Source: a virus
DNA length: 45,634 nucleotides
Reading direction: 5' to 3' (one strand)
Virus record (IMG/VR): IMGVR_UViG_3300029266_001356
Span: 1-45,634 of that record
Numbering within the stretch: position 1 is the first letter of the stretch; each line of letters starts with the position of its first letter. The position numbers and the translations under genes were made by a program. Positions 2,470 through 43,106 of this stretch are shown here, piece after piece. The notes beneath the pieces were generated by a model. The model was not told where the DNA came from. It worked only from the letters and a program-made list of their open reading frames with translations, and did no database searches.

Positions 2470-4029
2470 ATGGAATACAATCAGCCTAGCGAGATTGTCA
2501 AAGACTTAAACTTTGGCGATGGGGCTAAAAATAGAATAGCAGCTGGCGTAATAAAACTAGCTCAAGCAGTGAAATCAACCCTTGGAGCATCTGGAAAGTG
2601 CGTTATATACGAAGACGCCAGAGGACTTCCGGTCATAACAAAAGACGGTGTAACAGTTGCAGAATCTGTAGTCTTATTTGACCCGGTTGAAAACATGGGA
2701 GCTACTTTAATAAAAGAAGCGGCTAGAAATACAGTGAGAGAAGCAGGTGACGGCACTACTACAGCTACCGTCCTTGCTGAATCGTTGTTGAAAGAAGTTA
2801 ATAGTTGCAATAAAGATGTAACTATAAGAGACATAAAAGAAGGTATTAAATCTGGAGCTAAAAAAGTTAATGATTACCTAGATAAAGTTTCTGTAAAGAT
2901 CGAAGGCGATATGCTGGAATCTGTTAGTTCAATAAGCTGTAATAATGATGCGGAACTAGGAAAGATTATAGCGGAAGCTTATAATAAGGTAGGTAAGGAT
3001 GGTGTGGTAATGATGGAAGAGTCACCAACTGAAGAAACGTATGTTGAGATTGTTGATGGTGTACAGATAGATTCAGGACTCACTTCTGCACACTTTGTTA
3101 CCGATAAAGAAAAACAACTTGTTGATCTTGACAACCCACTAGTATTAATAGTATCTTCAGAAATACCAAACATAAGAAAAATACAAACAGTATTAGAACA
3201 TGTTATAAAGCATAAACGTTCACTACTTATAGTGGCTCCAGTTGATGCACAAGTAAAAGCTGCACTTGTTATGAATAAAGTGAAAGGTAATATCAAAGTG
3301 AATATAGTTGACTTACCAGGCTTTGGTCCTACTAAGAATGATACTGTAGCTGATTTAGCTTTTCTTGTAGGTGCTAGCGTAATCAATGAAGAATTAGGTG
3401 ATGATTTAGATCTTATAGATGTTAGTTGCTTAGGAGAGGCTTATTCAGCAGTAACAGATGATAAGACCACGGTGTTAACTATAGATATTCCAGAAGAAGC
3501 TATGGAAGAAAGAATAGCTATTATTAAGAAAACTATTGGTGAGTGGGATAAAAATCCATTTATACAAAAAAAGCATAGACAAAGATTAGCCATGCTGTCA
3601 GGTTCTGTTGGCGTGGTAAAAGTAGGTGCTGATTCAAAGATAGAGCTCAAAGAAAAGAAAGATAGAATAGAAGATGCTATTTACGCTACTAAAGCTGCTT
3701 TGAAAGAAGGCATTGTTCCAGGCGGTGGAGTTGCGTTACTAAATGCATCTCAAAAAATCTCCGCTAAAGCGGTTGGTGAAGAAATACTAATGAAAGCTCT
3801 TCAAGCTCCTTTTTATACTATATTAGATAATGCCGGTATAACTATGGCCGCTGGTTACGAAGATCACGAAGGTTACGGTATTGATGTTATAACCGGTGAA
3901 AGAGCTACAATGATTTCAGCTGGTATAATAGATCCGGTTTTGGTTACAAAATCGGCGCTTAAAAATGCTGTTAGCGTAGTATCGACAATAATATCTGCAG
4001 ATTGTGTAATTTCAAATATGAGAATGTAA
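2470..4029 (+). CDS. groEL: GroEL-like chaperonin (Cpn60)
   Basis: 519 residues, against about 545 for bacterial GroEL. ATP-dependent barrel chaperonins enclose unfolded proteins. Visible signatures: TLGASGK (38-44; TLGPKGR in E. coli), ITKDGVTVA (56-64), the ATP-loop motif GDGTTTATVLA (93-103), the catalytic region DRIEDAIYAT (398-407) that holds the equivalent of Asp398, and GIVPGGGVALL shortly after. The equatorial, intermediate and apical segments all appear present in order. The C-terminus ends SNMRM and lacks the Gly-Gly-Met tail. The co-chaperonin follows with a TAATG overlap, so the pair is co-translated. Phage GroELs are known in some large and marine phages; here it probably helps fold virion proteins. 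It may be an active ring or partner with host subunits. Confidence 0.95.
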   Translation: MEYNQPSEIVKDLNFGDGAKNRIAAGVIKLAQAVKSTLGASGKCVIYEDARGLPVITKDGVTVAESVVLFDPVENMGATLIKEAARNTVREAGDGTTTATVLAESLLKEVNSCNKDVTIRDIKEGIKSGAKKVNDYLDKVSVKIEGDMLESVSSISCNNDAELGKIIAEAYNKVGKDGVVMMEESPTEETYVEIVDGVQIDSGLTSAHFVTDKEKQLVDLDNPLVLIVSSEIPNIRKIQTVLEHVIKHKRSLLIVAPVDAQVKAALVMNKVKGNIKVNIVDLPGFGPTKNDTVADLAFLVGASVINEELGDDLDLIDVSCLGEAYSAVTDDKTTVLTIDIPEEAMEERIAIIKKTIGEWDKNPFIQKKHRQRLAMLSGSVGVVKVGADSKIELKEKKDRIEDAIYATKAALKEGIVPGGGVALLNASQKISAKAVGEEILMKALQAPFYTILDNAGITMAAGYEDHEGYGIDVITGERATMISAGIIDPVLVTKSALKNAVSVVSTIISADCVISNMRM

Positions 4030-38505: not shown

Positions 38506-39540
38506 ATGGTAAGAATACTAATAATAATACTAATGTTAGCTTGCAACATTACACAAGCTCAAGAGCTAAAAAAACTTTTTAAGTTTTCTACGTTCTATGC
38601 TGCTGTTAACGGTGGTAACTCTATATCTGACGTAGATGTTTTTTCCGTGTCTAACGGGTTAGAGACAGCTACAGTTAAAACTCCTTATGATTATAACATA
38701 TCACTAGGTATACGTAAAATTGCTAGATTTGGTTATGAAAACAAAGCGCAAACTTTTTACGATGGTACTGAGGAGTCTTGGTCGGACGGTGCTAATATAG
38801 GTAAAGTTTCTGGTTTAGAGTTTTTGTTTGAAGTAGATTACAAAAGAGAACAAAACGTAGACTATTTAGACCAACATCATTTTATTAGATATGTTAAAGA
38901 CAATTATGTACTAAAAGGTGAATACCTAGAAGATGGTTTTGCTGATATAAAGTATTTTGAAACATCAGAAAGATATAGATATAAAGTTAATGACAAATTA
39001 TCGTTTAACGCTGGGCTTGCACAAAGATTATCTGAACCTTATGGGTATGATCCTTTAGCAGAGTGGATGTTAAGCAGTGGTAATATACATTACACTTACC
39101 TAGCATTACAACAAGGTTACAATGTTGATGTTGCTGCTAGTGAGTATTTTTCTCCTAACGGAGAGCTCGTTGCTACAAGCAAAGAGGTTTGGGAAGAAGT
39201 TGTTATACCAACAATGTTAGCTGACTATACTGAAAAGAAAAGAAATGAGTTAGAAAAAACTATACAACACTCTTTTGTTGTTGGTTTTGACTACTATAAG
39301 TATACAAAATCTAACTGGATACACACCTGGGCAAGTTTAATGCCTTATCATTACGATGACATTAGTGAGTTTTCGTATCACAACTACGTAGATGGTCAAT
39401 GGTATGATTACTCTGCTGGCTTGATATATGGCGTAAAAGTAAATAAAAGTTTAGGTTACTTTGTAGAGGGAAAATACAATAAGTACTGGAATAGACGCTG
39501 GTACGATTTTAAATTAGGATTAAATTATACAATATTTTAA
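38506..39540 (+). CDS. Exported outer-membrane-barrel-like protein
   Basis: 344 residues. It starts with a signal peptide (MVRILIIILMLACNITQAQE; cleavage probably after ITQA). The mature part is rich in aromatic-flanked alternating strands (FSTFYAAVNGGNSISD, YRYKVNDKLSFNAGLAQRLS, YFVEGKYNKYWNRRWYDFKL) and ends in a terminal Phe, as Gram-negative outer-membrane beta-barrels do. The sequence contains long loops. A phage-encoded barrel could block receptors against other phages, or change host surface properties during infection. It starts 34 bases after the giant gene. I recall similar proteins in uncultured marine phages; function not established. Confidence 0.65.
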   Translation: MVRILIIILMLACNITQAQELKKLFKFSTFYAAVNGGNSISDVDVFSVSNGLETATVKTPYDYNISLGIRKIARFGYENKAQTFYDGTEESWSDGANIGKVSGLEFLFEVDYKREQNVDYLDQHHFIRYVKDNYVLKGEYLEDGFADIKYFETSERYRYKVNDKLSFNAGLAQRLSEPYGYDPLAEWMLSSGNIHYTYLALQQGYNVDVAASEYFSPNGELVATSKEVWEEVVIPTMLADYTEKKRNELEKTIQHSFVVGFDYYKYTKSNWIHTWASLMPYHYDDISEFSYHNYVDGQWYDYSAGLIYGVKVNKSLGYFVEGKYNKYWNRRWYDFKLGLNYTIF

Positions 39541-39541
39541 C

Positions 39542-40036
39542 ATGGCATTCAAACTAAAATCAGGAAACACAAGTTCTTTTAAAAAAATGGGATCGTCCGC
39601 GGCAAAACAAAGAAGAACAGGTAAATTTGTAGTAAAAGATGGTAAAAAAGTTTACCAAGAAAATGAAAAAGGTGATGATGGTTATGGAGGCGAAGGTTTT
39701 ATGCAGCCACCTTACAGGTATCCAGCTGGGCCAACTGAAAAAAGAAAAGGTTACCACGGTTACAAGCCAAAAGAAATAAACTTTAACAAAAAAGTTATGG
39801 TTGATGGTGAAACTAATGAGTTTAATAAAGCTAAAATAAAAGCTAATAAAGAAACATTTGACAAACTAAGCCAAGCAGATAAAGATAAACTACAAAAAGC
39901 TGCGAATGAAAAAAGAGCAAAATTTGAAGCAAGTGATGAATATAAAAAAAGAAAAAAGAATAGTAGTTCACCAGCAGGATTTGTATCAGCTGCGCAGCGA
40001 AAAGCTGTGTGGGCAAGTAAAAACGAAAAGAAGTAA
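39542..40036 (+). CDS. Basic protein with MAFKLK tag and SAAQRKAVWAS motif
   Basis: 164 residues from ATG one base after the barrel gene. It begins MAFKLKSGNTSSFKKMGSSA, a variant of the tag found far upstream at 836-6800. The middle is Lys/Gly-rich; the end contains SPAGFVSAAQRKAVWASKNE, a motif I recall from small basic phage proteins. No membrane segment. It is followed by a TAATG overlap. A basic, tagged protein placed among exported proteins shows the tagged family is spread over the genome and not one local duplication. Confidence 0.7.
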   Translation: MAFKLKSGNTSSFKKMGSSAAKQRRTGKFVVKDGKKVYQENEKGDDGYGGEGFMQPPYRYPAGPTEKRKGYHGYKPKEINFNKKVMVDGETNEFNKAKIKANKETFDKLSQADKDKLQKAANEKRAKFEASDEYKKRKKNSSSPAGFVSAAQRKAVWASKNEKK

Positions 40037-40320
40037 TGGCTAAAGAATTAAACGAAAACACTGGATTTAACGTAAGTATTAAAACTTTAATGGCAATTGG
40101 AGCTGCAATAACGACTGTTGTTGGTATGTGGTTTGCTTTACAAGCTGATATAGCCGAAGCAAAAGAACTTCCAAAAGCTCCTCCGCCAGATGTAAGCCGT
40201 ATGGAATTTGATATGAAAGATCAAAACATTAGGCTGTCTATTGAAAATACAGAAAAAGCAGTAGACGAGTTAAAACAAAGGTTGATTAGAATGGAAGAAA
40301 AAATAGACGACTTGAGATGA
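40036..40320 (+). CDS. Membrane-anchored coiled-coil protein (possible spanin or holin partner)
   Basis: 94 residues: a short polar N-terminus, one membrane segment (about 14-36, SIKTLMAIGAAITTVVGMWF), a proline-rich spacer (LPKAPPPDVSR), then a coiled coil (RMEFDMKDQNIRLSIENTEK and on to the end). One N-terminal anchor with a periplasmic coil is the layout of an inner-membrane spanin; a regulatory holin partner is equally possible. No outer-membrane lipoprotein mate is evident here. Stop/start overlaps bind it to both neighbours (TAATG before, ATGA after). Confidence 0.6.
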   Translation: MAKELNENTGFNVSIKTLMAIGAAITTVVGMWFALQADIAEAKELPKAPPPDVSRMEFDMKDQNIRLSIENTEKAVDELKQRLIRMEEKIDDLR

Positions 40321-40676
40321 AAAAAATTGACACTACTTGGAAGATTTTTGCTGGTTATTTATTAGTATTGTTTTTAATGATATGCAGTTCAGTAGCTAAT
40401 GCTCAGGTAGTAGTAACACATTTTAACGCGGCTTGGAACGATCCAAACAAAGTAGCTTACATAGGTAAATTAACAGATTGTGAGATAGTATATGTAGATA
40501 TAGCTAAATCACCTAAGTTACAAGCTAAACACGAGATAGTTGTAGTGCCTACCGTAGTTATATATAAAGATGGTGAAGAAGTAAAAAGGTTTCAAGCTGA
40601 CATATCGTTTAGCATGAAAGCTACAAGAAAAGAAATGCAGCAAGTGATAGATGAATTATTAATGAGCGACTTTTAA
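40317..40676 (+). CDS. Exported thioredoxin-fold protein lacking the active cysteines
   Basis: 119 residues. A signal peptide (about 1-29, ending SSVANA|Q) is followed by a thioredoxin-like domain: strand VVVTHFNAAW, then NDPNK where thioredoxin has CGPCK, a helix, strand EIVYVDIA, the cis-proline turn VVPTVVIYKDGEEVKRF (Pro78) and a final helix. Both catalytic cysteines are absent (W40-NDPN in place of WCGPC), so it cannot be a dithiol oxidoreductase. An inactive exported fold suggests a binding role, for example partner or inhibitor of a host periplasmic protein. It overlaps the previous gene by four bases. Confidence 0.65.
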   Translation: MKKIDTTWKIFAGYLLVLFLMICSSVANAQVVVTHFNAAWNDPNKVAYIGKLTDCEIVYVDIAKSPKLQAKHEIVVVPTVVIYKDGEEVKRFQADISFSMKATRKEMQQVIDELLMSDF

Positions 40677-40677
40677 A

Positions 40678-41037
40678 ATGGCATACGTACAAGCAAATAA
40701 TCCTTTTCCAGTTACAAGTTGTGGTAGACGTAGGTCTTTCATGCAAGGTGGTAATCCTGGAGACGACAGAACAAAACAAAGTCCTTTTGAGCAGTCAAAC
40801 AAAAGAACAAAAGGTAAAGATAGACATTTTAGAACACCAGAGGAAGGCGCTGGGATGACATCTAAAGGAGTTGCATCTTACAAGGCAGCAAATCCAGGTA
40901 GTAAATTAAAAACAGCTGTTACAGGTAAAGTTAAAGCAGGAAGCAAAGACGCGGGTAGAAGAAAATCATTTTGTGCTAGATCTATAGGATGGAAAGGTGA
41001 AAGAGGTAAAGCCGCTAGGGCAAGATGGAAATGTTAA
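40678..41037 (+). CDS. Basic protein with GRRKSFCAR/ARWKC motif (DUF6321-like)
   Basis: 119 residues, very basic. It starts MAYVQANNPFPVTSCGRRRS and has the conserved-looking tail GMTSKGVASYKAANPGSKLK, then DAGRRKSFCARSIGWKGERG and RARWKC at the very end. The RRKSFCARM.G...R..WNC type of ending recalls the DUF6321 family of phage proteins, function unknown; two cysteines and many arginines suggest metal or nucleic-acid binding. It follows the previous stop by one base and precedes the short MRNAPL gene. Confidence 0.65.
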   Translation: MAYVQANNPFPVTSCGRRRSFMQGGNPGDDRTKQSPFEQSNKRTKGKDRHFRTPEEGAGMTSKGVASYKAANPGSKLKTAVTGKVKAGSKDAGRRKSFCARSIGWKGERGKAARARWKC

Positions 41038-41055
41038 CAAATAAATATATATAAA

Positions 41056-41220
41056 ATGAGAAATGCACCACTAAAAGGATTAATGAAAAAAGCTTCGCCA
41101 ATGATGTTTAAAGGAGCCGACTCTTCAAACTCCTCATGCTGGAAGGGATACAAAAAAGTAGGAACAAAAAAATCTCCAAGCGGAACTGGAAAAACAGTTA
41201 ACGACTGTAAAAAAATATAA
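41056..41220 (+). CDS. 54-aa protein of the MRNA[SP]L family
   Basis: Too short for usual ORF calling but well supported: ATG at 41056, stop overlapping the next start (TAATG at 41218-41222), and an N-terminus MRNAPLKGLMKKASPMMFKG matching the protein at 836 (MRNASLPGLIKK). It then has a CWKGYKK motif, parallel to CSVDGYKR there. Contains SPMMF, like the tag core of the MAFK proteins. Basic, no membrane segment. Function unknown. Confidence 0.7.
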   Translation: MRNAPLKGLMKKASPMMFKGADSSNSSCWKGYKKVGTKKSPSGTGKTVNDCKKI

Positions 41221-43106
41221 TGAAAAAACTACTACTACTTGTATTATTAATACCAAATCTATTACTAGCTCAGTATTGCACTGACGCTTTTGTGTTGGTA
41301 AATCTAGATCAATATCCAAGTGAAACATCTTGGCAAATAGCAGATACAAATGGTGCTGTGTTGTTTTCAGGCGGTCCTTATACTGGCCAACCTTTTTACT
41401 CACCACAAACAACTATGATGTGTTTACCTCATGGTTATTTAGAATTTACTATATTCGATCAATATGGTGATGGTTTAGCTGGTAGTTTATGGGGTGGGCA
41501 AGACGGATCATACTACGTGGTGCAATGTGGAGATACTTTAGTTTATGGTGATACAGCAAACTTTGGGTACGATTCCGCCCACGTATTTATATCCGCTCCA
41601 TGTCCCCCGCCTCCAGTTATTCTTGGTTGTATGGATAGCTTATACTTTGAGTACATGCCTAACGCTACTTTAGACGATGGAAGTTGTTTAAACTTAGTAG
41701 TAGTAGGTTGTTTAGATACAAATGCTTTTAACTATGATCCATTAGCTAACGTTATGGATTTTATTGATAGCTGTACATTTGATTTATACTTACATGACTT
41801 AGTAGGTAACGGTTGGGTTGGAAGTAGATTAGAAATATACCAAGGTAGCGACACATCTGTATTTTTTATGACAAACAATGGTGCTAGTCAATTGTTTAAT
41901 ATAGATCTAGCTTCGCCTGAAGATGTTAGTGCAAGATTTTTTATAAACCAACAAGCTTTTAACACGTTGGTTGAGTGTGGTTTTACTTTATTGAACCCGT
42001 TTGGAGATACAGTTATGAGTGTTGTACCTCCTTTTATTTTACCGTTTATTAATTATGAAGGAACTACATATTGCGGCAATGAATGTATAGATGTTGTTGA
42101 AGGCTGTATGGACAGTTTAGCTTTTAATTACATGGACACGGCTAATACAAATGATTTTTGCTATTACAATCCAGGTTGTACTAGTCCAGCTTATTTAGCT
42201 TACCACGTGGATACTGCAATGGGAATAGTTAGAGATTACAATAATCAAGACAGTTGTTTAATAGGTGGTTTAGCTGTTTTTGGTTGTACAGATTTTTTAG
42301 CTTACAACTACAATCCGATAGCAAATGTTAATGTTGGTTGTTTACCATTTATTTATGGTTGTATGGATGTAACTATGTACAACTACGATCCGCTTGCTAC
42401 GGCGCCTGACACTTGCGTGCCTTTTGTTTATGGTTGTACTGATCCTTTAGCATTTAATTATGATCCACTTGCAAACAGTGATAACGGTAGTTGCACTGCG
42501 TTCGTATACGGTTGTACAGACAGTACAGCTTTTAACTATAACCCACTAGCCAATGCTGATAACTCTTCTTGTGTTGCTTTTATATACGGTTGCACGGACC
42601 CTTCTGCTCTTAACTATTCCCCGTCAGCAAACACGGAAGACTTTAGTTGTATTGCTTATGTTTATGGGTGTATGGATAGTTTGGCTCTTAACTACGATCC
42701 ACTGGCTAACACGGATAACGGTGCGTGTATTTCTATCGTTATGGGTTGCATGGATCAAACAGCGTATAACTTTAATGCAAATGCTAACACTGACAATCCT
42801 ATATCTTGTCGTTATAGCGCAGGTTGTATTACTGGTGATAGCATTCCTTACTGGTTAAACGATCCTTGCTACGCTTGGGTTATAGATATAGATAACTATT
42901 GTTGTGATAACGAGTGGGACGAAATATGTCAAGCAACATACGATTATTGTGAAGGTACTTGGGTTGGACCATTACCAAGAAGAATAGCTAACTTACTAAG
43001 AATAACAGATCTACTAGGTAGACCTGCTAAAATGAATACAAATCAATTACTGTTTTTCATATACGATGACGGAACAGTAGAAAAGAAAATATTAAAAAAA
43101 CAATAA
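41220..43106 (+). CDS. Secreted cysteine-repeat surface protein with T9SS-like C-terminus
   Basis: 628 residues. A signal peptide (MKKLLLLVLLIPNLLLA|Q, 1-17) is followed by ten repeats of the GC[MT]D..AFNY.P.AN...G.C type (136-156, 163-185, 295-314, 355-374, 380-399, 405-425, 430-451, 457-477, 483-503, 509-530), familiar from secreted Flavobacteriia proteins. A cysteine-rich block (CYAWVIDIDNYCCDNEWDEIC, split at 550-570) precedes the tail. The end, RRIANLLRITDLLGRPAK (587-604) and FFIYDDGTVEKKILKK, resembles T9SS sorting domains or host-protein ends with GR and YDDGTVEKK. It would be exported and surface-anchored in a Bacteroidetes host. Possible roles: superinfection exclusion or adhesion. 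It is unusual in a phage and supports the host assignment. Confidence 0.75.
   Translation: MKKLLLLVLLIPNLLLAQYCTDAFVLVNLDQYPSETSWQIADTNGAVLFSGGPYTGQPFYSPQTTMMCLPHGYLEFTIFDQYGDGLAGSLWGGQDGSYYVVQCGDTLVYGDTANFGYDSAHVFISAPCPPPPVILGCMDSLYFEYMPNATLDDGSCLNLVVVGCLDTNAFNYDPLANVMDFIDSCTFDLYLHDLVGNGWVGSRLEIYQGSDTSVFFMTNNGASQLFNIDLASPEDVSARFFINQQAFNTLVECGFTLLNPFGDTVMSVVPPFILPFINYEGTTYCGNECIDVVEGCMDSLAFNYMDTANTNDFCYYNPGCTSPAYLAYHVDTAMGIVRDYNNQDSCLIGGLAVFGCTDFLAYNYNPIANVNVGCLPFIYGCMDVTMYNYDPLATAPDTCVPFVYGCTDPLAFNYDPLANSDNGSCTAFVYGCTDSTAFNYNPLANADNSSCVAFIYGCTDPSALNYSPSANTEDFSCIAYVYGCMDSLALNYDPLANTDNGACISIVMGCMDQTAYNFNANANTDNPISCRYSAGCITGDSIPYWLNDPCYAWVIDIDNYCCDNEWDEICQATYDYCEGTWVGPLPRRIANLLRITDLLGRPAKMNTNQLLFFIYDDGTVEKKILKKQ
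41625..42809 (+). repeat. Ten GC[MT]D..AFNY repeats
   Basis: Ten cysteine-bounded repeats of about 20-23 residues; the last seven are nearly tandem with a spacing of about 25 residues. Each has a cysteine at each end, so each could close its own disulphide loop, and several have D/N-rich loops that could bind calcium. DNA identity between units is moderate, so divergence rather than recent slippage is indicated. Confidence 0.85.

Follow-up and report, generated by a model that had tools for sequence, protein, structure and literature searches.

A phage Cys-repeat protein with a short C-terminal tail as a probable cargo of the host type IX secretion system

A Cys-repeat gene and its neighbors

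The window analyzed here, the whole 45.6-kb stretch of a virus record, carries genes for a terminase, a portal, and virion proteins with PHROGs matches. The terminase shares 64% identity with that of a podovirus from Manatee Spring, and lower identity was found for another 86 terminase matches; among the matches listed were Flavobacterium phages near 47%, and by organism the matches also included Cellulophaga, Tenacibaculum, and Maribacter phages. Because of these terminase relatives, Bacteroidota hosts fit this phage group, in line with the host phylum (Bacteroidetes) named by the initial annotation. The ending of the Cys-repeat protein described below also points to this phylum, and more precisely to marine Flavobacteriales. 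The window also carries a phage GroEL gene (2470-4029; PHROG 5725, E 9e-129), and GroEL is likewise annotated, with a 10-kDa chaperonin, in the related podovirus MW202828.

An intact open reading frame (ORF) on the plus strand (41220-43106) encodes a protein of 628 amino acids from an ATG start (Table 1). The closest upstream in-frame stop lies at 41208 with no start codon in between, and the ORF is genuine. Promoter-like sites around it were no more frequent than in shuffled sequence. Immediately upstream, 40678-41037 and 41056-41220 encode short proteins containing Lys and Cys, the first of which corresponds to the C-terminus of larger proteins from phages (phrog_10346, E 5.3e-19).

The N-terminus of the 628-residue protein, MKKLLLLVLLIPNLLLAQ, has the typical makeup of a Sec signal peptide that ends in LLLAQ with Q at +1, so that the protein starts as T9SS cargo proteins do. 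Signal peptides of this protein and its relatives were judged by sequence pattern, and among the 100 relatives whose 5' end is complete, 91 carried one ending in Q by a loose pattern. Strict GC[MT]D motifs occur at nine positions (136, 295, 355, 380, 405, 431, 457, 483, and 509), spaced by 25 to 26 residues from 355 to 509, compared to a mean of 0.02 and a maximum of 1 in shuffled versions of the protein. Looser counting adds GCLD at 163 to give 10 and GCTS at 319 to give 11. The signal peptide reported in the initial annotation is thus confirmed as Sec-type and kept in relatives, as is its GR...YDDGTVEKK-type ending, present as ITDLLGR...IYDDGTVEKKILKKQ and conserved among relatives. The GC[MT]D repeats are also present, but because the strict motif occurs only nine times, the count of ten given there is valid only with GCLD at 163. 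A Pfam P35 match within the Cys repeats (residues 325 to 394; E 0.0061) was under the gathering score and was taken as chance.

Table 1. Features of the Cys-repeat gene and of its co-travelling neighbors in the window
Feature	Position	Strand	Basis
Predicted 12-strand outer-membrane beta-barrel with signal peptide	38506..39540	+	AlphaFold2 pTM 0.72; 117/164 viral loci
94-aa protein, one hydrophobic segment and coiled-coil-like C-terminus	40036..40320	+	Conserved in 126 loci
Secreted or membrane-anchored thioredoxin-like protein without CxxC	40317..40676	+	NCBIfam TIGR01068; 134 loci
Sec signal peptide (residues 1-17, predicted cut before Q18)	41220..41270	+	Sequence, hydrophobic core
Beta-sandwich domain 1 (residues 20-128)	41277..41603	+	AlphaFold2 with 65 sequences, pLDDT about 90
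Cys-repeat region (residues 136-535), broken by beta-sandwich domain 2	41625..42824	+	Repeat positions, alignment
Beta-sandwich domain 2 (residues 184-290)	41769..42089	+	AlphaFold2 pLDDT about 90
PYWLND...YCCDNEWDxxC Cys domain (residues 536-579)	42825..42956	+	Columns invariant across 11 and across 65 sequences
Short tail at the C-terminus (residues 588-628), candidate short-form T9SS sorting signal	42981..43103	+	Comparison with relatives, AlphaFold2

Sequence searches for PDB relatives with the protein and with its profile found none. The second beta-sandwich domain aligned with 2xfd in VIA-align (Z 7.5, rmsd 2.8, 87 residues), a range that may reflect only a common arrangement, and weakly resembles in its predicted fold the Ca-dependent carbohydrate-binding module vCBM60. 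Foldseek with the full model returned only C2/adhesin-like beta-sandwich matches with very low TM-scores, which we considered uninterpretable.

Four genes, encoding the Cys-repeat protein, a barrel, a thioredoxin-like protein, and a 94-residue protein, co-travel in most of the 164 viral loci, while other neighbors vary. The barrel is well conserved (mean column identity of 70% in 67 members), and its closest folds are outer-membrane barrels, with Tsx as the best VIA-align row (Z 14.1, rmsd 3.6, 195 residues). Foldseek gave FadL among many barrels; a FadL-like barrel has 14 strands, and the model has 12. The barrel had no match in Pfam or PHROGs. Identity as PorP/SprF or PorV found no support in profiles, since NCBIfam gave no match except one unrelated (E 0.21). 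No barrel relatives were found in 16 bacterial genomes or in the phage-record collection. Many barrel relatives begin with a lipobox-like CAAPKKCCSQ. The thioredoxin-like protein matched TIGR01068 under the curated cut-off (E 2.9e-6) and has an N-terminal membrane segment and FNAxWN at the CxxC site; CxxC was found in none of the 84 family members, and the phage-record collection held no relatives of the gene.

The 94-residue protein is possibly holin- or spanin-like, judging by its single hydrophobic segment and coiled coil. This layout and the co-travel of the four genes would also suit a cassette for lysis or release, whose four products would jointly weaken or rupture the outer membrane. 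None of these proteins matched a lysis family, however, and a T9SS signal would take the cargo outside the cell, and a lysis factor has no use there. We consider a lysis cassette improbable relative to a role of the Cys-repeat protein as exported cargo.

Alternative tails on a common phage body

Comparison of the last 70 residues with T9SS sorting-domain profiles, the check proposed in the initial annotation, gave no match, a result that by that test alone would count against a T9SS substrate. Neither the window protein nor the tails of four short-tailed relatives (L001 to L004) contained a T9SS sorting domain in Pfam and NCBIfam up to E = 1; the window protein fell short of the TIGR04183 and PF18962 cut-offs and also matched no type B or type C domain (TIGR04131 and NF033708; NCBIfam, up to E = 1). 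Because of this lack of a profile match, the tail does not qualify as a canonical type A domain. Type A domains (TIGR04183, PF18962) are Ig-like folds of about seven strands and 70 to 100 residues with YPNP, whereas the tail, without YPNP, has 41 residues and three predicted strands (592-596, 610-615, and 620-624; pLDDT 67 to 79).

The two tail types nevertheless share a C-terminal place, a Sec signal peptide, and Lys-rich last residues, and each follows homologous bodies at the equivalent position, in phages as well as in hosts. In its motifs, the short tail, which ends as RITDLLGR...IYDDGTVEKKILKKQ, looks like the end of a type A domain, with D..GR followed by IY.DG and a Lys-rich terminus. 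In the type A cargo HBP35, the last 22 residues are enough for secretion of GFP, and Lys residues of the final motif matter (PMC10202324). When the profiles of short and type A tails were compared with each other, only 13 columns aligned, with 3.7% probability; an alignment this weak is no basis for homology, and we do not assign the two tails a shared origin.

Relatives of the window protein were found on at least 450 contigs in IMG/VR. Those aligned have in common a signal peptide and Cys repeats as well as a highly conserved PYWLND...CCxNxWDxxC domain, after which one of two alternative ends follows: the short tail (ITDxLGRPx...IYxDGTVEKK) or a TIGR04183/PF18962 domain. The short tail was present in 97 of 111 distinct relatives of a first collection, which was partly assembled from loci picked by tail. 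Among 85 loci picked by body, 63 had the strict short tail, 14 had a type A domain, and 8 were variant or cut, including 3 near-variants of the short tail and 1 that looks like type A. Six relatives (L005 to L010) with 41 to 66% identity to the window protein and the invariant Cys domain ended in TIGR04183/PF18962 domains over the cut-offs, while the window protein and L001 to L004 carried the short tail on this same body. TIGR04183 scores of the type A ends in phage relatives were 28 to 58 bits (cut-off 23). A body tree, built quickly from a core of 175 columns and possibly blurred by recombination, required tail type to change 8 times, with no fewer than 3 of these changes forced by well-supported branches.

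GC[TM]D-type repeats also occur in the Synechococcus phage S-CAM3 (NC_031906.1, 36811-36954), in a protein annotated as virion structural. The host group of this phage is not known to have a T9SS. Because the repeats occur in this cyanophage virion protein, sequence comparison indicates that Cys repeats by themselves mark no T9SS link. Many GCTD repeats were also found in host loci, including L276, L280, and L286 (25 in the fetched part of L276), with open frames up to 2826 residues and a type A-like domain at the end of L280. Judged by these sequences, the phage GCTD-type repeats have close cellular relatives.

The similar repeats of S-CAM3, together with the position of the window gene amid large late genes and fiber-like genes, could indicate that the protein is a virion component, such as a tail or fiber decoration, with signal-like ends inherited from hosts and without a role in export. 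Yet virions assemble in the cytoplasm, and the signal peptide was kept in nearly all complete relatives. Furthermore, the tail, instead of being lost, was retained or swapped for a genuine type A domain, and the co-travelling neighbors are envelope-like proteins, not conserved virion genes. We give little credence to a virion component and favor export as T9SS cargo.

The short tail in bacterial genomes

A scan of 84,980 genomes for the short tail gave 139 loci, the best 80 of which were all named as Bacteroidota, nearly all of them marine Flavobacteriales such as Crocinitomicaceae and Cryomorphaceae. The bodies that bear the tail vary widely and are unrelated, including esterases, leucine-rich repeats, and fibronectin-like proteins. 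With a loose pattern, a signal peptide with Q at +1 was found in 51 of 75 short-tail proteins versus 78 of 320 other ORFs. Sixteen marine Flavobacteriales-type genomes contained 1 to 42 short tails and 31 to 134 type A tails each, and T9SS components were detected in all, with SprA over the cut-off in 14 and PorV in the remaining two. As expected of a T9SS cargo signal, the short tail is thus a C-terminal element common to unrelated secreted proteins of T9SS-bearing genomes. With even sampling of the phylum, it occurred in 1 of 392 genomes, the center genome itself, a number that yields no co-occurrence statistic; this rarity suggests that the tail is clade-restricted. A metagenome-assembled genome of about 1.5 Mb deposited as Chryseobacterium gleum contained 22 short tails (L171, L175, L177, L178, L200, and L211 among the loci), as the small marine genomes do, and given this size and these signals the label looks wrong.

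Tail exchange was also observed in bacteria. A PHA-depolymerase-like esterase family of the short-tail genomes has mostly short tails and few type A domains. Two of its members, L249 and L264, from two metagenome-assembled genomes, have bodies that are 95% identical (302 of 319 residues up to the tail). L249 ends in the short tail without TIGR04183, L264 ends in a TIGR04183 domain (35.3 bits; cut-off 23), and the similarity of their DNA ends at the tail. This swap is the strongest single piece of sequence evidence for functional equivalence of both tails. A second bacterial family that we tested had no swaps and short tails only.

The short tail might instead sort proteins to another route or anchor them, and exchange with type A domains because both lead to the outer membrane. 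The absence of profile similarity to domains of type A, B, or C and the coexistence of both tail kinds in host genomes would be consistent with such a route. In the 95% identical orthologues, however, the type A domain was fully replaced with no other T9SS signal left, and among the genomes checked the short tail was found only in T9SS-bearing ones. Sorting by another route thus appears unlikely. Because the tails swap in phages and in bacteria and the short tail is spread in T9SS-bearing genomes, it probably represents a short T9SS signal class not described before, which hosts use and phages have borrowed.

Export model and biological meaning

The initial annotation considered that a phage product on the T9SS route would be a new way to modify the host surface. 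The route itself was already known for phages because Cryophage genes are predicted T9SS type A cargo (PMC7468147) and a crAss-BACON ORF bears a T9SS sorting domain (PMC6949934). The window protein resembles these in being a phage-encoded protein predicted to use the host T9SS. The known examples, however, have annotated sorting domains (type A in Cryophage) on enzymes or on PA14 or BACON bodies, in contrast to the Cys-repeat body, uncatalogued short tail, and conserved envelope cassette described here. No description of the short tail, the repeat strings, or the cassette was found in a literature search whose coverage left out most subscription journals and bioRxiv, and both the signal and the cassette appear to be novel.

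For type B cargo, a barrel of the PorP/SprF kind serves as cognate shuttle and anchor (PMC12618676, PMC9143113). As in those systems, the phage cargo gene adjoins an outer-membrane barrel gene, which leads us to the hypothesis of a similar pairing of cargo and barrel in the phage cassette. Unlike type B cargo, the window protein has no TIGR04131 match and a much shorter tail; the barrel of the phage, with 12 strands predicted, matched no PorP/SprF profile.

Our analyses make it likely that the window protein is a phage-made cargo of the host T9SS, exported through an uncatalogued short signal. The T9SS reading of the initial annotation stands insofar as the tail swaps naturally with type A domains, but not in a profile match, and the surface change that it envisaged may follow from export. 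The Sec signal peptide would bring the protein to the periplasm, where the host T9SS, with its SprA translocon and PorV-type shuttle, would read the tail of about 40 residues as a short-form sorting signal; as the natural swaps suggest, this tail would stand in for the longer type A domain. The Cys-rich body with its two beta-sandwich domains would then reach the surface of the infected cell or be released, perhaps held by the outer-membrane barrel of the same cassette. Gene position and weak similarity of the predicted fold point to a surface function, and the exported body would most likely bind glycans or surface receptors and might thereby mask the cell or debris from further phage adsorption. 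Some phage lipoproteins block receptors, and by analogy the purpose is most likely surface masking or decoration. We propose only tentatively, and with more doubt than confidence, the wider view that marine Flavobacteriales have a compact further T9SS class on tens of proteins per genome and that marine phages carry a cargo/barrel cassette that remodels the infected-cell surface.

If the short tail is a T9SS signal, up to 42 proteins in some small marine genomes carry a mark that current T9SS profiles overlook, and the secretomes of these genomes would be underestimated because of this omission. The natural swap pairs are ready-made constructs for asking what the T9SS minimally recognizes. Phages of mostly uncultured ocean bacteria would, in that case, export their own proteins via the host T9SS, with the exported cargo encoded beside a phage outer-membrane barrel.
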